A stretch of 10,366 bases of DNA from Friedmanniella sp. (lineage in GTDB: Bacteria > Actinomycetota > Actinomycetes > Propionibacteriales > Propionibacteriaceae), in NCBI GenBank assembly GCA_025964935.1, contig JAOPXW010000374.1, positions 1-10,366 on the forward strand, in the 5' to 3' direction. The position numbers were made by a program, and so were the translations under genes. The notes beneath the pieces are model-generated. The model was given only the letters and a program-made list of their open reading frames with translations, had not been told where the DNA came from and ran no database searches. This document shows positions 2,630 to 10,366 of this stretch, in pieces. Each line of letters opens with the position of its first letter. Position 1 is the stretch's first letter.

Positions 2630-3304
2630 GTGACGTTTGCCAAGTCCGAGCGCTCTGAGCTCTGCGACCTCCTTCTCTCCGTCGGACCGGCCGCCCCCAC
2701 GCTCTGCGCCGGCTGGGACACCCACGACCTCGCCGCCCACCTGTGGATCCGGGAGAACGACCCGGTGGGGGCCACCGGCATCGTGGCCAAGCCGCTGTCG
2801 GGACTGCTGGACCGACGGATGGGCGAGGTGCGGGCGCGCTGGGACTTCGCCGAGCTGGTCCAGCGGGTCCGCAAGGGCCCGGCCCGGTTCTCCGTCTTCG
2901 CCATCCCCGGAGTCGACGAGGGCGCCAACACCACCGAGTTCTTCGTCCACCACGAGGACGTCCGCCGCGGCGGGCCCGACCCGCGGGCGCCGCGCACAAT
3001 CGATGCCGACGTCGAGGACTGGATGTGGCGGCGGTTGAAGCTGCTGGCCCGTGCCTGGTTCCGTCGGGCCGAGGTCGGGGTCGTGCTGGAGCGGCTCGTC
3101 TGCGGGACCGCGGCCGCGACGACCGAGCCGGCGACCGAGTCCGACACGATCCGGGCCGTCGGGGGCTCCCCGATCGTCACCGTCATCGGGCGCCCGAGCG
3201 AGCTGATGATCTTCGCCCACGGACGGGTGAACACCGCCGACGTCCAGCTGGTCGGCGAACCCGGTGCCGTCCAGCGTCTGCTCGACACCGACTTCGCCGT
3301 CTGA
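2630..3304 (+). CDS. TIGR03085-type DinB/MDMPI-like putative metal-binding protein
   Basis: A 224-residue protein of the actinobacterial DinB-like group related to the mycothiol-dependent maleylpyruvate isomerase N-terminal domain. Such proteins form a four-helix bundle with a metal site made by separated histidines. The visible signature is [15 protein letters not shown] (28-42; His32 and His37), then [13 protein letters not shown] (101-113; His107, His108), which together supply the likely metal ligands. The C-terminal part ends with [14 protein letters not shown] (186-199), resembling the G-x-P-x-EL-x(3)-x-GR element common in this superfamily. The biochemical reaction is unknown; thiol (mycothiol) transfer is possible by family only. 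The GTG at 2630 is preferred over an in-frame ATG at 2564 because the extra 22 residues are Arg/Pro-rich and unlike the family, and because a -10 box lies just upstream. It diverges from hisI across about 150 bp and is followed after 52 bp by a small membrane protein gene. Confidence 0.8.
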
Positions 3305-3345
3305 GCCCGCCCCGCCCCTCTTCCGCCCCCACCGACGCCCGACCC

Positions 3346-3350
3346 GAGGA
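3346..3350 (+). promoter_or_regulatory. Shine-Dalgarno site of the small membrane protein gene
   Basis: GAGGA lies 6 nt before the ATG at 3357. It fixes this start over longer in-frame readings that would begin inside the preceding gene. Confidence 0.6.
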
Positions 3351-3356
3351 CGACCC

Positions 3357-3566
3357 ATGAGCTCCCGCCCCCTCCGCATCGCCGCCGCCGTCCTGGGCGT
3401 CCTGGTCCTGCTCACCGGGCTGGTCTGGGTGGGCCAGGGGCTCAACTACATCCCCGGCAGCTTCATGACCGGCAACAAGACCTGGTTCTGGATCGGCCTG
3501 GTCGCCGTCCTGGTCGGACTGGGCCTGCTCATCGGGGGGCTCCGGCGCCCGCCGCGCTCCCGCTGA
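3357..3566 (+). CDS. Small two-helix membrane protein, conserved hypothetical
   Basis: A 69-residue protein with a basic N-terminus (MSSRPLR), a first hydrophobic helix at about residues 8-26 and a second at about 44-61, and a basic C-terminal tail (RRPPRSR). The N- and C-termini are both Arg-rich, predicting both in the cytoplasm by the positive-inside rule. The short external loop [20 protein letters not shown] (24-43) contains QG and PGSFMTG motifs that I recall from small uncharacterised bacterial membrane proteins, so it is likely a real conserved family rather than a chance frame. The function is unknown. The gene follows the DinB-like gene by 52 bp on the same strand with its own GAGGA ribosome site, so the two are probably co-transcribed; a functional link is not established. 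Confidence 0.75.
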
Positions 3567-3641
3567 GGGTCGGCCCACCTGCCGCCTGCGTCGGACGGCG
3601 CCGCCGCCCCACGCGGTGATGCGGGCGTAACACTGCCTCAC

Positions 3642-3647
3642 TAGATT
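3642..3647 (+). promoter_or_regulatory. Candidate leaderless -10 element of the ligase/amidotransferase/peptidase cassette
   Basis: TAGATT matches the TANNNT -10 consensus and ends 7 nt before the ATG at 3655, putting the predicted transcription start at the start codon. No ribosome site lies between them, which fits leaderless translation. The sequence 17-18 nt upstream shows no recognisable -35 hexamer. It sits in an 88-bp intergenic gap after the small membrane protein gene and is the only promoter-like signal seen for the three-gene cassette. Confidence 0.55.
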
Positions 3648-3654
3648 GCTGTCG

Positions 3655-6246
3655 ATGAGGGCAGAGCTGACGCTGGGTGCCGAGGAAGAGCTGCACCTGA
3701 TCGACCTGGAGAGCTGGAAGCTGTCGGCGCGGGCGCCGCAGCTGCTGTCCAGGCTGCCGAAGGCCAACTACTCCGCCGAGATCCAGCGGACGACCGTGGA
3801 GACCAACACCGACGTCGTCGACAGCCTGGACGGGCTGCGCTCGGAGCTGCTCCGGCTCCGCCGCGGTCTGGTCGAGGTCGCTGCCCAGGACAACATCGGG
3901 ATCGCCGCCGCCGGCACCGCGCCCAGTGCGGCGTACGCGGACTTCGAGCTGACCACGACCGGCCGCTACGGCCGGATGCAGGAGCAGTACCGGCTGCTGG
4001 TCGACGAGCAGCTGATCTGCGGCCTGCAGATCCACGTCGGGGTCAGCGACAAGGACATGGCCGTCCAGATCATGCAGCGGATCGCCCGGGACCTGCCCGT
4101 GCTGACCGCGCTGTCGGCGAGCTCACCGTTCTGGAACGAGGCCGACACCGGCTACTCCAGCATCCGTTCCATCATCTGGCAGCGCTGGCCCACCGCCGGG
4201 GCCACCGGCCCGGTGGGATCGGCGCAGGAGTACGAGGACCTGGTCCGCGACCTCATCAACACCGGCGTGATCGCCGACGCCAAGATGGCCTACTTCGACG
4301 TCCGACCCTCCTCGCACGCGCCGACCCTGGAGCTGCGGGTCTGCGACGCGTGCCCGATCGTGGACGACGCCATCCTGATCGCCGGTCTGTTCCGAGCCTC
4401 GATCCGCGCGGCCGAGTCCGACATCGAGGCGGGCGTCGGCTTCGACCCGGTTCCCCCGCCGGTGCACCGGGCCGCCATCTGGCGGGCCGCCCGTGGCGGC
4501 CTGTCTGGTGACCTGCTCGACAACACCCGGCACCCCAAGCCGATGACCGCCGCCCGCGCCGTACGCGCCCTGGTCGAGCGGCTCCGGCCGCAGCTGCAGG
4601 AGCTGGGCGACTGGGAGGAGGTGCACGACCTCGCCGAGACCCTGTTGGCCCGGGGGAACTCCGCCGACCGGCAGCGGGCCGCCTTCGCCGAGCGCGGCCG
4701 GCTGAACGACGTTGTGGAGCTGATCGTCGCCGAGACCCACGGCCCCGCCTCCGGCCCGCCGGTGGCCGCCCCGGCCCTGCGGCGCTACCGCACCCGGGCC
4801 GGCGACGAGGCCGTCGGGCCCAACCACCGGCCGCGGCCGGTCTACCGGGACCTGGTCGACTTCTACCGCGAGCTGGACGCCGACCGGATCTTCGCGCGCA
4901 AGAAGGCCCGCGACAGCTGGGTCGCCGACACGGGCCTCACCTTCGGGGTGGAGGGCGAGCAGCGGCCCTTCGACGTGGACCTGATGCCGCGGATCATCTC
5001 CCCGCACGAGTGGGCCGCCCTGGAGAGCGGGCTCGGTCAGCGCGCCCGCGCCATCGAGTGCTTCCTCGACGACGTCTACGGGGAGCAGCGGATCATCCAC
5101 GACGGGGTGCTCAGCGCCGACCTCGTGCACGACTCCCCCGGCTGGCGCCCCGAGGCCGCGCAGCTGCCGGCCGGCACCGTCCGCGCCCCGATCATGGGCT
5201 TCGACCTGGTCCGCAACGAGTTCGGGGGCTGGCGGGTGCTGGAGGACAACGTGCGCAACCCGAGCGGGGCGGCGTACGCGATGGCCATCCGTGACCTGAT
5301 GGACGACGTGATGCCCGACCTCCCCCGCCCCGAGGGGCTGCTCGACCCGCGGGCCGCGCTGCCCAAGATGCGCACCGCCCTGCTGGCCCACGCCGGTCCG
5401 GACGCCCGCGGCGCGCTCCTCTCCTCCGGCCCCGCCAGCTCAGCCTGGTTCGAGCACCGGCTGCTGGCCGAGCGGGCCGGCCTCACCCTGGTGGTGGCCG
5501 ACGACCTCGACGTGGTCGGCGGGGAGGTCCGGCTGCGCCAAGGCGGGCAGCGGCTGGACGCCCTCTACCTCCGGCTCGACGACGAGCTCGTCGCGACCAC
5601 CGACCGCGACGGCCGCGCCGTCGGGGCCGAGATCTTCACGGTGGCCGCGGCCGGCGGGGTGTTCCTGGCCAACGCCCCGGGCAACGGGGTCGCCGACGAC
5701 AAGGCCATGTACTGCTACGTGCCCGAGCTGATCGCCTACTACCTGGGTGAGCACCCGACCCTGGAGGCCGTGCCGACCTACCGCACCAGCGAGGAGTCGG
5801 AGTACCGCACCGTGCTGGACCGGGTCGGGGAGCTCGTGACCAAGCCGGTCGACGGGCACGGCGGGATCGGGGTGCTGATCGGCCCGGACGCGAGCGCGGT
5901 CGAGGTCGCGGAGCGGCGCGCAGCCATCGCGGCGAACCCGGCGGGCTGGGTGGCCCAGGAGGTCGTCGCCCTGTCCTCGCACCCGACCCTGGCCGGCAGC
6001 ATCCTGCAGCCCCGGCACGTCGACCTGCGCGTGTTCGTCTACCTCACCGGGACCGGACCTGAGGACTACACGATCGGGGACCTGGGTCTGACCCGGATGG
6101 CCCCGGATGGCAGTCTGGTCGTCAACTCCTCCCGTGGCGGCGGCGCCAAGGACACCTGGATCATCTCCGCGCCGGACGCCATCCCCGCCCCACCCGTACC
6201 CGTGGCGGGCGGGACCGGCGACCACGTCACAGACCAGAACGGATAA
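3655..6246 (+). CDS. Fusion of YbdK/GCS2-type carboxylate-amine ligase with circularly permuted type 2 ATP-grasp
   Basis: An 863-residue two-domain protein predicted to form two amide bonds using ATP. The N-terminal domain (about 3-365) is of the GCS2/YbdK glutamate-cysteine-ligase-like family: LGAEEELHLID (7-17), VETNTDV (48-54), CGLQIHVGVSD (122-132), DTGYSSIRSIIWQRWPTAG (164-182) and RPSSHAPTLELRVCDACPIV (217-236). The C-terminal domain (about 395-840) is a circularly permuted ATP-grasp: RPFDVDLMPRII (437-448), VYGEQRIIHDG (474-484), VLEDNVRNPSG (528-538), YLRLDDEL (638-645), ANAPGNGVADDKAMYCYVPE (672-691), VTKPVDGHGGIGV (728-740), RHVDLRVFV (787-795) and LVVNSSRGGGAKDTW (821-835). The domains are joined by a low-complexity linker (about 365-394). 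ATG 3655 is chosen over TTG 3646 because the TTG overlaps the -10 box. The stop lies 2 nt before the amidotransferase start. Substrates are unknown. True glutathione or EgtA function is unlikely, since the N-terminal family is YbdK-like and the ATP-grasp is not GshB-like. Confidence 0.92.
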   Translation: MRAELTLGAEEELHLIDLESWKLSARAPQLLSRLPKANYSAEIQRTTVETNTDVVDSLDGLRSELLRLRRGLVEVAAQDNIGIAAAGTAPSAAYADFELTTTGRYGRMQEQYRLLVDEQLICGLQIHVGVSDKDMAVQIMQRIARDLPVLTALSASSPFWNEADTGYSSIRSIIWQRWPTAGATGPVGSAQEYEDLVRDLINTGVIADAKMAYFDVRPSSHAPTLELRVCDACPIVDDAILIAGLFRASIRAAESDIEAGVGFDPVPPPVHRAAIWRAARGGLSGDLLDNTRHPKPMTAARAVRALVERLRPQLQELGDWEEVHDLAETLLARGNSADRQRAAFAERGRLNDVVELIVAETHGPASGPPVAAPALRRYRTRAGDEAVGPNHRPRPVYRDLVDFYRELDADRIFARKKARDSWVADTGLTFGVEGEQRPFDVDLMPRIISPHEWAALESGLGQRARAIECFLDDVYGEQRIIHDGVLSADLVHDSPGWRPEAAQLPAGTVRAPIMGFDLVRNEFGGWRVLEDNVRNPSGAAYAMAIRDLMDDVMPDLPRPEGLLDPRAALPKMRTALLAHAGPDARGALLSSGPASSAWFEHRLLAERAGLTLVVADDLDVVGGEVRLRQGGQRLDALYLRLDDELVATTDRDGRAVGAEIFTVAAAGGVFLANAPGNGVADDKAMYCYVPELIAYYLGEHPTLEAVPTYRTSEESEYRTVLDRVGELVTKPVDGHGGIGVLIGPDASAVEVAERRAAIAANPAGWVAQEVVALSSHPTLAGSILQPRHVDLRVFVYLTGTGPEDYTIGDLGLTRMAPDGSLVVNSSRGGGAKDTWIISAPDAIPAPPVPVAGGTGDHVTDQNG

Positions 6247-6248
6247 CC

Positions 6249-8033
6249 ATGTGCGGACTTGCGGGCGAGATCAGGTTCGACCGGCGGTACGCCGACGTCG
6301 CCGCCGTCGCTCGGATCACCGAGAAGCTGGCGCCGCGCGGCCCTGACGGCACGGGTCTGTGGTCCCGGGGTCCCGTCGCCCTGGGGCACCGGCGGCTCTC
6401 GATCATCGACCTGAGTGTCAGCGGCTCCCAGCCGATGGTCGACCCCCAGCTCGGGCTGACCCTGGCGTTCAACGGCTGCATCTACAACTACGAGCAGCTG
6501 CGCGCCGAGCTGGAGGGCGCCGGGCACCGCTTCTTCTCGCACTCCGACAGCGAGGTCATCCTCAAGGCGTACGCGCAGTGGGGTCTGGACTGCGTCGACC
6601 ACTTCTTCGGGATGTTCGCGTTCGCGATCTCCGAGCACGCGTCCGGCCGGCTGGTGCTGGGGCGGGACCGGCTCGGGATCAAGCCGCTCTACCTGGACCA
6701 GACCGCCGACCGGCTGCGCTTCGCCTCCTCGCTCCCGGCCCTGCTCGCCGGCGGTGGCACCGACACCTCCATCGACCCGACCGCGCTGAGCTACTACATG
6801 TCCTTCCACAGCGTGGTGCCGGCGCCGCGGACGATCCTGAACGGCATCCGCAAGCTGCCGCCGGCCACCCTGCGGGTGATCGAGCCGGACGGCACGAGCA
6901 CCGACCGGCTCTACTGGGAGCCCGACTTCAGCCGGGACCCGGCGCAGGCCGACTGGACCGAGCAGGACTGGGAGGCGGCGCTGCTCGACAGCCTCCGGAC
7001 CGCGGTCGACCGCCGGATGGTGGCCGACGTCCCCGTCGGGGTGCTGCTGTCGGGCGGCATCGACTCCTCGCTGGTCGTCGCACTGTTGGCCGAGGCGGGC
7101 CAGCAGGACCTCAAGACCTTCAGCATCGGCTTCGACTCCGCCGGTGGGGAGTCGGGCGACGAGTTCGAATACAGCACGCTCGTCGCCGAGCGGTTCGGGA
7201 CCGACCACCACCGCATCAAGATCGACTCCTCGCGGCTGCTGCCCGGGATCGACGCCGCGATCGGTGCCATGAGCGAGCCCATGGTCAGCCACGACTGCGT
7301 CGCCTTCTTCCTGCTCAGCCAGGACGTGGCCCGAAGCGTCAAGGTGGTGCAGTCGGGCCAGGGCGCGGACGAGGTGCTGGGCGGCTACGACTGGTACCCG
7401 CCGCTGGCCGAGGTGCCCCGCGGTGGCGCGGTCGAGGCCTACTCCCGGGTCTTCTTCGACCGTCGCTGGGACGCCATGGGTGGGGTTCTGGCCAAGGACT
7501 GGCTGCTGGACCACGACGCTCCCACCGCCTTCATCACCGACCGGTTCGGCCGGCCGGGCGCGGAGACCTCGGTCGACGCCGCGCTGCGCAACGACACCAC
7601 GGTGATGCTGGTCGACGACCCGGTCAAACGGGTCGACAACATGACGATGGCCTGGGGTCTGGAGGCCCGGGTCCCGTTCCTGGACCACGAGGTCGTCGAG
7701 CTGGCCGGGCGGATCCCGCCGGGTCTGAAGCTCTCCGACGGGGGCAAGGGCGTGCTCAAGCGGGCCAGCCGTGGCGTGGTTCCCGACGAGGTCATCGACC
7801 GGACCAAGGGCTACTTCCCGGTGCCGGCCATCCGCCAGCTGGACGGACCGTACCTGAACCGGGTGCGCGACGCCCTGACCGACCCGCGAGCGAAGCAGCG
7901 GGGGCTGTTCAACCCCTCAGCCGTGGAGTCCATGCTCGCCGACCCCAACACCACCCGTACGACGCTGGGCTCCAACGCCTTGTGGCAGCTGGCGTTGCTG
8001 GAGATGTGGCTGCAGCACCACGATGTCGGCTAG
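6249..8033 (+). CDS. Asparagine-synthetase-like amidotransferase (N-acetylglutaminylglutamine amidotransferase type, TIGR03104-like)
   Basis: A 594-residue class II glutamine amidotransferase that should activate a carboxylate as an acyl-adenylate and amidate it with ammonia from glutamine. The glutaminase domain (about 2-210) has the nucleophile Cys2, RGPDG (30-34), LGHRRLSIIDL (45-55), FNGCIYN (74-80) and SDSE (99-102). The synthetase domain (about 240-590) has the pyrophosphate loop LLSGGIDSS (266-274), SGQGADEVLGGY (369-380) and LEARVPFLDH (471-480). SFHSVVPAPRT (185-195), HDCVAFFLLS (348-357) and the DWYPP following the ADEVLGGY segment recall the AsnO proteins that amidate N-acetylglutaminylglutamine, rather than housekeeping AsnB. 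FNGCIYN has Cys77 where AsnB has the glutamine-binding Glu (NGEIYN). The ATG is 2 nt after the ligase stop, implying re-initiation; the 3' end overlaps the peptidase start by 11 nt. The substrate is inferred to be the product of the ligase fusion, not asparagine precursors. Confidence 0.9.
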   Translation: MCGLAGEIRFDRRYADVAAVARITEKLAPRGPDGTGLWSRGPVALGHRRLSIIDLSVSGSQPMVDPQLGLTLAFNGCIYNYEQLRAELEGAGHRFFSHSDSEVILKAYAQWGLDCVDHFFGMFAFAISEHASGRLVLGRDRLGIKPLYLDQTADRLRFASSLPALLAGGGTDTSIDPTALSYYMSFHSVVPAPRTILNGIRKLPPATLRVIEPDGTSTDRLYWEPDFSRDPAQADWTEQDWEAALLDSLRTAVDRRMVADVPVGVLLSGGIDSSLVVALLAEAGQQDLKTFSIGFDSAGGESGDEFEYSTLVAERFGTDHHRIKIDSSRLLPGIDAAIGAMSEPMVSHDCVAFFLLSQDVARSVKVVQSGQGADEVLGGYDWYPPLAEVPRGGAVEAYSRVFFDRRWDAMGGVLAKDWLLDHDAPTAFITDRFGRPGAETSVDAALRNDTTVMLVDDPVKRVDNMTMAWGLEARVPFLDHEVVELAGRIPPGLKLSDGGKGVLKRASRGVVPDEVIDRTKGYFPVPAIRQLDGPYLNRVRDALTDPRAKQRGLFNPSAVESMLADPNTTRTTLGSNALWQLALLEMWLQHHDVG

Positions 8034-9906
8034 CCCCGCCCCGGGCGGCCTCTCCACCGCCACCCCGGAGCTCCGGGCCGCGATGGCCATGGGCGACGCC
8101 CTCGTCGACGCCTGGGGCAGCTGGGGTCCGACGCTGAGCCCCGACTGCCGCACCATCGCCTTCGTCAGCGACCGTGGCGGCACGCCCGAGGTGTGGGTGC
8201 AGGACCTGCCCACCGACGCCGCACCCAGGCCCACCGCCCGACGGGTCAGCCTCAGCCAGGACCCGGTGGTGGCGGTCAACTGGTCCGCCGACGGGGCCTG
8301 GCTCGCCTGCTCCCTGGCCACCGACGGCGGGGTCAAGACGCAGGTCTGGGTGGTCCGGCCGGACGGGTCGGGCGCTCGCCGGATCGCCGGCTCGACCGAG
8401 CAGCACGCCGAGCTGGGTCCCTGGACCCGCAGCGGGCACCGCGTGGTGGTGACCGTGCCGGGGGTCGAGCTCGGTGCGCCCACCGAGGCGTTCCTGGTCA
8501 ACCCGGCCAACGGGAAGCTGTCCCCGCTCGCCGTCGGCGACCTGATCTCGGTGCTGGACCTGTCGGTGGACGAGACCTTCGTGATCGTCAAGGACGGCCA
8601 GCGCGGCAAGCAGTTCTGTGTCGTGGTGGACCGAGCGGCCGACAGCGACCACCCCCTGCTGCCCTACCCGGCCACCGGCTCCACCGACCGGGCCATCATC
8701 CGGCCCGCACCGGCCGACGACCCGCAGCCGCTGATCGCGTACGTGGCCACCGACGCCGCCCTGCCCCGCCGCCAGCTGGTGGCCGTGCCGCTCGGTCCTC
8801 TCGGCTGGCGTGGCACCTCCGGTGTCCTGGCCTCCCGGGCCGACGCCGAGCTGGAGGGCCTGGACGCCGACGACGCGGGCCGGCTGCTGCTGCTGGTCTG
8901 GAACGTGGCCGGCGGCAGCGAGGTCGAGCTGCTGGACACCTGGACCGGGGCCTCGACCTCGGTCCCCGACGTCCCGGGCTCGGTCGTCACCGGGGCCCTG
9001 CTCAGCCGGGACGGCTCGCTCGCCCTGGTCAGCGTGGAGGGGCCGCACCGGCCCCGCGAGCTCTGGGGCCTGGACACCGCCGCGCTGGTCTGGACCCGGC
9101 TCACCGACACCCCGGAGCTGCCGCCGTACGCGCTGGTCACCCCCACGCTGGAGACCTTCACCGCCCGCGACGGCCTGCCCCTGACCGGCTGGCTCTACCG
9201 GGTGCCGGGGCGGTCGACCCCGGGGCCGACCATGCTCAGCCTGCACGGCGGCCCGGAGGCGCAGGAGCGTCCGGTCTTCAGCCCGCAGCACCAGGCGATG
9301 GCCGCGGCCGGCATCGCCGTCTTCGCGCCCAACATCCGGGGCTCCTCGGGCTTCGGGCGGGCGTTCGTGCACGCCGACGACATCCACGGCCGACGGGACG
9401 CCTTCGACGACGTCCTGGCCTGCCGCGACTTCGTGGTCGAGGCCGGGGTGGCCGAGCGGGGGGCGGTCGCGGTCACCGGACGCTCCTACGGGGGCTACCT
9501 GACCCTGGCCATGCTGGCGTTCTCCCCCGGTGAGTTCGCCACCGGCGTCGACATCTGCGGCATGTCGGACCTGCACACCTTCTACCGCGACACCGAGCCG
9601 TGGATCGCGTCGGCGGCGGTCAGCAAGTACGGCGACCCCGAGCACGACTGGGCGTTGCTGCACGCCATCTCCCCGCTGCACGCCGCGGCCAACATCGAGG
9701 TGCCGCTGCTGGTCGTGCACGGCGAGCTGGACACCAACGTGCCGCTCGGGGAGGCGCAGCAGATGGTCGCCGCCCTCCGCGAACTGGACCGCGACGTCGA
9801 GTATCTCCAGCTGGACGGGGAGGGCCACGAGTACCGCCGGGCCGACTCCCGCCGACGGCTGATGGAGACGATGCTGGTCTTCCTGGACCGCACCCTGAGA
9901 AGCTGA
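8023..9906 (+). CDS. S9 family (prolyl oligopeptidase-like) serine peptidase
   Basis: A 627-residue protein with an N-terminal beta-propeller (about 30-370) built of WD/TolB-like blades such as LSPDCRTIAFVSDRGG (38-53), NWSADGAWLACS (86-97) and LSRDGSLALVSVEG (327-340). The C-terminal alpha/beta hydrolase domain (about 375-627) has HGGPE (408-412), the nucleophile elbow GRSYGGY (486-492; Ser488), Asp570 in HGELDTNVP and His602 in GEGHEY, so the Ser-Asp-His triad is complete. There is no signal peptide, so it should act in the cytoplasm on short peptides admitted through the propeller; families of this kind include dipeptidyl- and acylaminoacyl-peptidases. The ATG at 8023 lies inside the amidotransferase gene (ATG at 8023-8025, TAG at 8031-8033) and there is no clear Shine-Dalgarno, so it depends on coupling. 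A later Met (residue 21 or 23) could also start it. The context suggests it trims or recycles the cassette's peptide-like product. Confidence 0.92.
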   Translation: MSASPAPGGLSTATPELRAAMAMGDALVDAWGSWGPTLSPDCRTIAFVSDRGGTPEVWVQDLPTDAAPRPTARRVSLSQDPVVAVNWSADGAWLACSLATDGGVKTQVWVVRPDGSGARRIAGSTEQHAELGPWTRSGHRVVVTVPGVELGAPTEAFLVNPANGKLSPLAVGDLISVLDLSVDETFVIVKDGQRGKQFCVVVDRAADSDHPLLPYPATGSTDRAIIRPAPADDPQPLIAYVATDAALPRRQLVAVPLGPLGWRGTSGVLASRADAELEGLDADDAGRLLLLVWNVAGGSEVELLDTWTGASTSVPDVPGSVVTGALLSRDGSLALVSVEGPHRPRELWGLDTAALVWTRLTDTPELPPYALVTPTLETFTARDGLPLTGWLYRVPGRSTPGPTMLSLHGGPEAQERPVFSPQHQAMAAAGIAVFAPNIRGSSGFGRAFVHADDIHGRRDAFDDVLACRDFVVEAGVAERGAVAVTGRSYGGYLTLAMLAFSPGEFATGVDICGMSDLHTFYRDTEPWIASAAVSKYGDPEHDWALLHAISPLHAAANIEVPLLVVHGELDTNVPLGEAQQMVAALRELDRDVEYLQLDGEGHEYRRADSRRRLMETMLVFLDRTLRS

Positions 9907-9976
9907 CGCCAGTCGCGGAGATGCGGCCCACCAGGGGCCACGACGGCCCACTGGAGTCGCTTCTCCAGGGCGGTGC

Positions 9977-10012
9977 GGCCTGAGGCCGTATCGGGCCGGC
10001 GGGTCTCAGGCC
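9977..10012 (+). terminator. Candidate terminator hairpin between the peptidase gene and gatB
   Basis: GGCCTGAG (9977-9984) is a perfect inverted match of CTCAGGCC (10005-10012). In plus-strand RNA the stem can extend inward by a G-U and two G-C pairs to 11 bp, with a 14-nt loop. The wobble pair favours the plus-strand RNA, so it probably ends the cassette. It overlaps the gatB stop codon (10006-10008). No U tract follows, which is common in high-GC actinomycetes but weakens the call. A smaller hairpin, CTGGAG (9951-9956) with CTCCAG (9963-9968), lies just upstream. Confidence 0.4.
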
Positions 10013-10366
10013 AGCTTCTCCAGGATCAGCTCGCGCACCCGGGCCGCGTCGGCCTGACCGCGCATCTCCTTCATCACCGACCCGATCAGGGCACCGGCGG
10101 CCTGCACCTTGCCGGCGCGGACCTTCTCGGCCACCCCGGGGTTCGCCGCGATCGCCGCGTCCACCGCGGCACCGAGGGCCCCGTCGTCGGAGACCACCGC
10201 CAGCCCGCGGGCCGCGACGACCTCCGCCGGGGCGCCCTCCCCGGCGATCACCCCGTCGAACACCTGCCGGGCCAGCTTGTCGTTGATGGTCCCGCTCTCC
10301 ACCAGCGCCTGGATCTCGGCCACCTGGACCGGGGTGACGCCGGTGTCCTCCAGGTCGACCCCCAGC
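10006..10366 (-). CDS. gatB: Aspartyl/glutamyl-tRNA(Asn/Gln) amidotransferase subunit B, C-terminal part
   Basis: The last 119 residues of GatB, the subunit of the GatCAB complex that binds misacylated Glu-tRNA(Gln) or Asp-tRNA(Asn) for amidation. The gene enters from the right edge of the window, so the start and catalytic cradle are missing. The visible part is the C-terminal tail/YqeY-like helical domain, recognised by [17 protein letters not shown], the stretch [20 protein letters not shown] and [20 protein letters not shown], ending in EKLA and TGA. The reading frame stays open up to the edge. It converges with the peptidase gene, leaving a gap of about 100 bp that contains the inverted repeat described separately. 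It is a core translation gene, which supports a chromosomal location for the window. Confidence 0.95.

Follow-up and report, generated by a model that had tools for sequence, protein, structure and literature searches.

Introduction

N-acetylglutaminylglutamine amide (NAGGN) is an osmoprotectant peptide with both of its ends masked, one by an acetyl group and the other by an amide. The gene trio of the NAGGN system consists of asnO (TIGR03104), whose product amidates a carboxylate with glutamine nitrogen, ngg (TIGR03103), encoding a NAGGN synthetase composed of GNAT and ATP-grasp domains, and a gene for an M42 peptidase (TIGR03106). According to one study, AsnO and Ngg of Sinorhizobium meliloti are the reference for NAGGN synthesis and the characterized AsnO acts upon N-acetylglutaminylglutamine (PMC8070244). 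A Micromonospora in which asnO and ngg are said to be present has also yielded NAGGN itself (PMC8146288), and Micromonospora NAGGN clusters have been counted by type (PMC11537254). Here, we examine a three-gene operon of Friedmanniella sp. (Propionibacteriaceae), which encodes, in order, a ligase that joins a GCS2 (YbdK) domain to a circularly permuted ATP-grasp domain, an AsnO-type amidotransferase, and an S9 peptidase. It lies on a stretch of 10,366 nt, referred to as the window, which is the whole of contig C157 (JAOPXW010000374.1) in a 2.95-Mb, 83% complete assembly (GCA_025964935.1). Judging from its genes, we place the probability at roughly 60% that this operon serves the synthesis and turnover of a short peptide having a γ-glutamyl bond at one terminus and a primary amide at the opposite one.

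A literature search of partial coverage yielded no description of GCS2 paired with AsnO. The 2009 work of Iyer et al. on amidoligases reportedly may discuss related gene neighborhoods, and we do not claim the association of GCS2 with AsnO as unpublished. In PMC10979467, NAGGN and glutamate-cysteine ligase both occur, but are named apart.

Results

The operon and the NAGGN trio share a ligase-amidotransferase-peptidase logic, close packing of the genes, and a homologous AsnO. The AsnO of the window matches TIGR03104, the NAGGN amidotransferase family, at 953.1 bits (cut-off 570.1), its domains score 304.5 bits (Asn_synthase) and 143.7 bits (GATase_7), and the catalytic features Cys2 and SGGIDSS are both present. 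The analogy to the NAGGN trio drawn in the original prediction, which was made by a model from the DNA alone, is thus well founded, as is its remark that no acetyltransferase is visible, since domain scans of the three proteins found none. In contrast to the GNAT and ATP-grasp domains of the NAGGN ligase, the ligase here has a GCS2 domain and a circularly permuted ATP-grasp domain, while the peptidase belongs to S9 rather than M42. No match to TIGR03103 above the cut-off of 569 occurs in the window's assembly (83% complete), and a NAGGN synthetase elsewhere in this genome was accordingly rejected; the best partial match, on contig C393, reaches 182.9 bits over model positions 235–543. At E 1e-120, NAGGN synthetase was also absent from all nine genomes of the same genus that encode the trio of fusion, AsnO and S9, including that of the window, and three of the other eight are single-contig, 100% complete genomes. 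It was similarly absent from 16 of 17 further genomes with this trio (18 of the 19 examined lacked it, with L138 and L216 repeating same-genus records), and Kineococcus siccus has the trio together with a NAGGN synthetase match containing one in-frame stop. An M42 probe found nothing in the eight other same-genus loci (L038–L045), and the peptidase of the window is S9, the rest of the assembly not having been searched for TIGR03106. Because TIGR03103 and the M42 family TIGR03106 were both looked for in this way and neither was found, we class the locus as a variant of the NAGGN kind and not as a member of the NAGGN system. With no NAGGN synthetase in nine same-genus genomes and with a different ligase and peptidase, the earlier caution that the product may not be NAGGN itself appears justified.

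Both halves of the ligase retain the motifs of their families when aligned to 1r8g (GCS2) and 3n6x (ATP-grasp). The protein shares its GCS2 domain and motifs with the YbdK/GCS2 glutamate--cysteine ligases (1r8g, 1tt4), with NF010041 above its cut-off, and its ATP-grasp motifs with the circularly permuted type 2 ATP-grasp proteins (PF14403; 3n6x). However, it is distinct from plain stand-alone YbdKs in being fused to an ATP-grasp domain, and from other circularly permuted type 2 ATP-grasps in being fused to GCS2 and adjoining AsnO. In all 61 aligned fusions with an adjacent AsnO, including that of the window, 26 chosen motif positions are intact. The nine GCS2 positions among our choices (conserved Glu, His and Arg, which we picked from conservation) are intact in all 81 fusions, i.e., 61 with AsnO, 17 without it, and three followed by S9 only. 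A predicted structure of the fusion was of low quality (predicted template modeling score 0.57, from 11 sequences). This architecture is listed by NCBI as "carboxylate--amine ligase/circularly permuted type 2 ATP-grasp protein", a name that specifies neither a pathway nor a product. As for the third gene, its triad (Ser488/Asp570/His602) falls at the expected positions in an alignment to solved S9 enzymes, including 5l8s, and it is an acylaminoacyl-peptidase-like S9 enzyme by predicted activity.

The AsnO of the window is no asparagine synthase. At the position that an alignment to AS-B equates with Glu348, a glutamate expected in asparagine synthetases, each of the 104 family sequences has Gln (Gln371), whereas the four outgroup sequences have Glu. 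Together with the TIGR03104 score, this ruled out asparagine synthase as an identity for the protein. It is also evident that the three genes travel together. Among 57 relatives, the TIGR03104 cut-off was exceeded in 11, and nine of these encode fusion, AsnO and S9 together; all nine belong to the genus of the window, in which 20 genomes were included. The remaining two come from outside this genus; both possess the classical NAGGN synthetase, and one has M42 as well. We then scanned named GTDB contigs by alignment of the fusions and took the best 80 of 467 relatives, three of which (L138, L214 and L216) repeat records of the nine same-genus genomes. Fusion, AsnO and S9 occur in this order in 54 of these 80 loci; the rest are fusion-AsnO (6, of which L139, L159 and L204 are cut by contig ends), fusion-S9 (3), and fusion alone (17, with L194 cut by a contig end). 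The loci derive mostly from Microbacteriaceae, along with Geodermatophilaceae, Kineosporiaceae, Nakamurellaceae, Cellulomonadaceae, Nocardioidaceae, Propionibacteriaceae, and one named Streptomyces. The distance from fusion to AsnO ranges from -20 to 158 nt over 59 loci, with a median of -1 nt, and is at most 30 nt in 53 of them. The linkage is therefore more than chance and recurs in other genera, as the original prediction had expected; neither the rare adjacency nor the asparagine-making amidotransferase that it had named as possible refutations was encountered. It is exceedingly improbable that the three genes are mere neighbors, with AsnO making asparagine and two unrelated housekeeping enzymes beside it: such a view might account for the patchy occurrence within the genus (9 of 20 genomes), but not for the TIGR03104 score, the invariant Gln371, or a gene order conserved in many genera. 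In one complete chromosome, that of Frondihabitans sucicola (L236), the matches to AsnO and S9 break across reading frames whereas that to the ligase is unbroken, reflecting either ongoing decay or sequencing error.

When AsnO is followed across larger groups, it proves to be the constant part of these loci and the ligase the part that is exchanged. An evenly drawn sample of 296 genomes from the phylum yielded AsnO in 31; 21 of its loci adjoin NAGGN synthetase, and a GCS2 gene lies beside nine of the other ten. These ten comprise the window, a further fusion locus (L116), lone YbdK genes (L108–L111), separate ATP-grasp genes (L120, L127 and L131), and a divergent lone GCS2 (L123); in L127 and L131, a GCS2 gene lies at a distance besides the separate ATP-grasp, and in L127 this GCS2 gene is split. 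A denser sample of the class, again of 296 genomes, contained AsnO at 87 places in 86 genomes and NAGGN synthetase in 45 genomes. NAGGN synthetase adjoins 44 of the 87, and a GCS2 match is near 40 of the remaining 43. The latter consist of six loci seen before, all GCS2-linked, and 37 that were fetched, 34 of which have a GCS2 match nearby, in 26 cases with ATP-grasp. The peptidase goes with the ligase, S9 replacing M42: S9 is near 35 of the 43 loci (29 of the 37 fetched, plus the six seen before) and M42 near none, whereas M42 is near ten of the 21 NAGGN synthetase loci of the phylum sample and S9 near none. Apart from AsnO, the L120, L127 and L131 loci carry a separate circularly permuted ATP-grasp gene and a DUF1028 gene in place of S9 or M42, representing a third ligase arrangement and possibly a third recycling enzyme. 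Where a genome has AsnO as well as a solo ATP-grasp match (12 genomes), these lie apart; L120, L127 and L131 are exceptions revealed by a closer probe.

The lone-YbdK form is exemplified by Streptomyces fungicidicus, whose genes are named glutamate--cysteine ligase, N-acetylglutaminylglutamine amidotransferase, and alpha/beta fold hydrolase (the S9 enzyme). NCBIfam gives the first of these names to the GCS2 domain of the fusion as well, which raises the prospect of a low-molecular-weight thiol or redox metabolite, in which GCS2 would make γ-glutamylcysteine, as EgtA and GshA do, the ATP-grasp domain would extend it, and AsnO would amidate it. An OsmC gene upstream of the S. fungicidicus operon could be cited in its favor. 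Yet actinobacteria have mycothiol and ergothioneine, and no recurring redox gene was noticed beside the operon, although no systematic search for one was made. A reference title in PMC2588565 credits Escherichia coli YbdK with γ-glutamyl:cysteine ligase activity, but the substrate reported for the characterized AsnO is N-acetylglutaminylglutamine (PMC8070244), and we consider a thiol product unlikely.

The C-terminal tail of AsnO tracks the ligase type. The window has RTTLGS, whereas most NAGGN-type sequences have [LI]TPLRG. We compared 28 NAGGN synthetase-linked sequences with 76 other actinobacterial ones, leaving out the short L125 and L171. Residue 570 is Leu in all 28 of the former and Arg (72), Lys (2), Thr (1) or Ser (1) in the latter, making it the only AsnO column in which the two groups have no residue in common, while at 574 a basic residue, Arg or Lys, occurs in 24 of the 28 and Gly in 76 of 76. 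The tail of S. meliloti AsnO is ITPLRG (Ile570), as in Azospirillum and Haematobacter; among the 120 relatives listed for this protein, each of the 119 that could be read carries Ile or Leu at position 570. Conversely, Arg570 is found in 119 of 119 among the matches listed for the window's AsnO, as well as in 36 of the 37 fetched loci of the class sample, L281 having Gln. It is also found where AsnO occurs with S9 in the absence of a nearby ligase (L269, L270, L238 and L243). The suggestion that Arg570 might read the free carboxylate of a γ-glutamyl unit is weakened; since the basic residue at 574 in 24 of 28 NAGGN-type sequences becomes Gly in all of the others, charge moves rather than appears.

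In a tree of AsnO (71 of 108 sequences after thinning), the fusion-linked sequences cluster together (support 88), their sister group being the Streptomyces-type sequences (94), inside those linked to NAGGN synthetase. At least three changes between ligase kinds are needed, but an approximately unbiased test did not reject a single GCS2-linked AsnO clade (p 0.377). In the YbdK tree, 37 of 39 sampled AsnO-linked YbdKs fall in one clade on a long stem (Shimodaira–Hasegawa-like approximate likelihood ratio support 100), which also holds fusions without AsnO, fusions on short stretches ending before any AsnO, and one stand-alone gene. The GCS2 domain of the window belongs to this clade, whereas L123, L281 and 24 of 25 plain stand-alone YbdKs lie outside it. 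The stand-alone YbdK inside the clade is encoded on a Mycobacterium branderi plasmid (L312) close to genes for CsbD and DUF5994; the stretch that was read shows no AsnO.

Given that the GCS2-linked AsnOs branch within the NAGGN synthetase-linked ones and that the score of the window's AsnO lies deep inside the NAGGN amidotransferase equivalog, one could envision NAGGN being made by another route, with the fusion taking over from NAGGN synthetase (non-orthologous displacement) and the acetyl group coming from an acetyltransferase encoded elsewhere. Of the alternatives, this is the least improbable, but it remains doubtful for several reasons. In all three Geodermatophilaceae genomes tested, of five in the 80, AsnO occurs twice, next to the fusion at one locus and to NAGGN synthetase at the other, and the two ligase-AsnO pairs would be redundant if both made NAGGN; their retention in one genome is most easily explained if two products are made. 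K. siccus likewise combines the trio with a NAGGN synthetase match, albeit one with an in-frame stop. In addition, the AsnO tail differs in kind, the peptidase has been swapped as well, and GCS2 enzymes are established to use the γ-carboxylate, not the α-bond of NAGGN. A different combination occurs in three Quadrisphaera-like genomes (L186, L187 and L212), which have the fusion followed by S9 without AsnO and whose only TIGR03104 match lies elsewhere with NAGGN synthetase. These loci amount to a natural experiment on S9 activity toward a ligase product lacking the amide.

The closest named protein relatives of the window are from Microlunatus and Friedmanniella (Propionibacteriaceae). The reading frames of its three genes are intact throughout (Table 1), and the original description of a cassette on one strand, with a 2-nt gap between ligase and AsnO and an 11-nt overlap between AsnO and S9, agrees with the reading frames and domain matches. 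The ligase begins at ATG 3655, in a frame open from TTG 3646, and its stop ends at 6246. The single candidate promoter that had been proposed found no support, as a sigma-70-type promoter and terminator scan of positions 3200–10366 gave no sites; a TAGATT hexamer ending 7 nt ahead of the ligase ATG could serve a leaderless transcript. An Rfam scan of the window gave no match. Adjoining the operon are ordinary amino acid genes on the minus strand (487–2480), namely HisI (PRA-CH) followed by a TrpE-like anthranilate synthase component I (PF04715, PF00425), and, where the contig ends (10006–10366, minus strand), the C-terminal portion of a GatB-like gene; the operon is likewise flanked by trpE-like and gatB-like matches in the same-genus loci L039, L042 and L044. 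A 224-aa coding frame at 2630–3304 (plus strand) has no Pfam match, and by eye a similar protein precedes the operon in two loci of the same genus, L040 and L044.

Table 1. Coordinates of the operon genes and their domains in the window.
Feature	Position	Strand	Description
Bifunctional ligase	3655..6246	+	863 aa; fusion of a GCS2/YbdK carboxylate-amine ligase with a circularly permuted type 2 ATP-grasp
GCS2 (YbdK) domain	3667..4749	+	~residues 5-365; NF010041 356.7 bits (cut-off 332); Pfam GCS2 162.5 bits
Circularly permuted ATP-grasp domain	4789..6174	+	~residues 379-840; PF14403 (CP_ATPgrasp_2) 372.1 bits; 3n6x match 306 bits
AsnO-type glutamine-dependent amidotransferase	6249..8033	+	594 aa; TIGR03104
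AsnO tail signature RTTLGS, residues 570-575	7956..7973	+	separates GCS2-linked from NAGGN synthetase-linked AsnO
S9 peptidase, acylaminoacyl-peptidase-like	8023..9906	+	627 aa; PF00326 (Peptidase_S9) 143.9 bits; PD40 propeller repeat; 146 bits to 5l8s (amino acyl peptidase), its top PDB match

Discussion

Based upon the families to which these enzymes belong, a pathway can be proposed. GCS2 enzymes join the γ-carboxylate of glutamate to an amine, and ATP-grasp ligases make amide bonds. Firstly, the GCS2 domain would phosphorylate the γ-carboxylate of glutamate and join it to an amine, most likely that of an amino acid such as glutamine. Secondly, the ATP-grasp domain would add a further unit. 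This step is presumably an elaboration, since Streptomyces-type loci show no ATP-grasp domain beside AsnO. Thirdly, AsnO, a member of its family by sequence, would take ammonia from glutamine and amidate the terminal carboxylate of the putative peptide. Lastly, the S9 enzyme, in the place held by M42 in NAGGN loci, would hydrolyze the product and return its amino acids. A γ-linkage would shield the amino end of the peptide much as N-acetylation does in NAGGN; if so, an acetyltransferase would not be needed and a peptidase of another kind would be. The product probably differs from NAGGN. A compatible solute is expected to be net neutral, and our best guess is a putative compatible solute or nitrogen store in the form of net-neutral γ-Glu-Gln-NH2 or a version one residue longer.

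Several observations weigh against this proposal. Foremost, the fusion stands alone in 17 of the 80 loci, which the original prediction did not foresee, and no AsnO was detected at E 1e-30 anywhere in the 16 genomes tested from among these 17. The persistence of the fusion without AsnO implies that the ligase has, or can take on, an AsnO-independent role, perhaps in making a free γ-glutamyl peptide. Not all loci conform to the GCS2 association either: L120 has ATP-grasp but no GCS2 match, L269 and L270 have no GCS2 match nearby, L276 has only a 70-residue piece of ATP-grasp and L246 only a piece of GCS2 at a contig end, the GCS2 genes of L123 and L281 fall outside the AsnO-linked YbdK clade, that of L281 being divergently transcribed as well, and two other Streptomyces plasmids (L238 and L243) encode AsnO and S9 without an adjoining ligase. 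S9 is missing near eight of the 43 class-sample loci, three of which are cut by contig ends, and from the fusion loci of the Geodermatophilaceae with two AsnO genes. Furthermore, the trees do not prove separate ligase swaps, and a structural comparison aimed at the AsnO tail gave ranges only and did not place it at the acceptor site.

The fusions lacking AsnO offer a hint as to which step is tied to the amide. Five of the 17, from four genera, have lost an ATP-grasp motif residue that is kept in 61 of 61 AsnO-linked sequences (Fisher 0.0003, the sequences not being independent), while the chosen GCS2 positions are intact in all 17. This could mean that the ATP-grasp step is tied to AsnO and an amidated product and the GCS2 step is not. 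It is a hint only, because drift rises in both halves: the mean number of broken invariant positions in AsnO-less versus AsnO-linked fusions is 2.00 versus 0.49 for GCS2 and 2.18 versus 0.62 for ATP-grasp. On the ligase tree, at least ten changes are required to explain the presence and absence of AsnO. Peptide-tagging or protein-modifying roles have been proposed in the literature for the families of both ligase domains, including other circularly permuted ATP-grasp and glutamine-synthetase-like ligases, and a system of that type would be compatible with the 17 loci without AsnO. Nevertheless, no precursor-peptide or tag gene was recognized in the window, albeit without a dedicated search, and a free small metabolite is suggested by the AsnO family as well as by the position of the peptidase, which makes such a system quite improbable.

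Viewed across the phylum, we consider the chances slightly better than even that these loci constitute a second, hitherto unrecognized family of amide-capped peptide pathways in Actinomycetota, in which AsnO would retain its function while GCS2-type enzymes have taken the place of the ligase, possibly on as many as three occasions, and in which the product would be a γ-glutamyl peptide amide representing a new metabolite class. In that case, about half of the actinomycete TIGR03104 matches (43 of 87 in the class sample) would belong to this family and the NAGGN reading of them would be wrong, correcting a common genome annotation under which these AsnO genes would be misnamed. If the tail difference holds true, AsnO residues 570 and 574 would provide a short sequence test for sorting NAGGN loci from the GCS2-linked branch. 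Likewise, a function could be offered for the fused carboxylate-amine ligase/ATP-grasp proteins, which now carry only a domain name. If correct, this small-molecule pathway would be found in many actinobacteria, including Microlunatus, Herbiconiux, Rathayibacter, Blastococcus, Streptomyces, and others.

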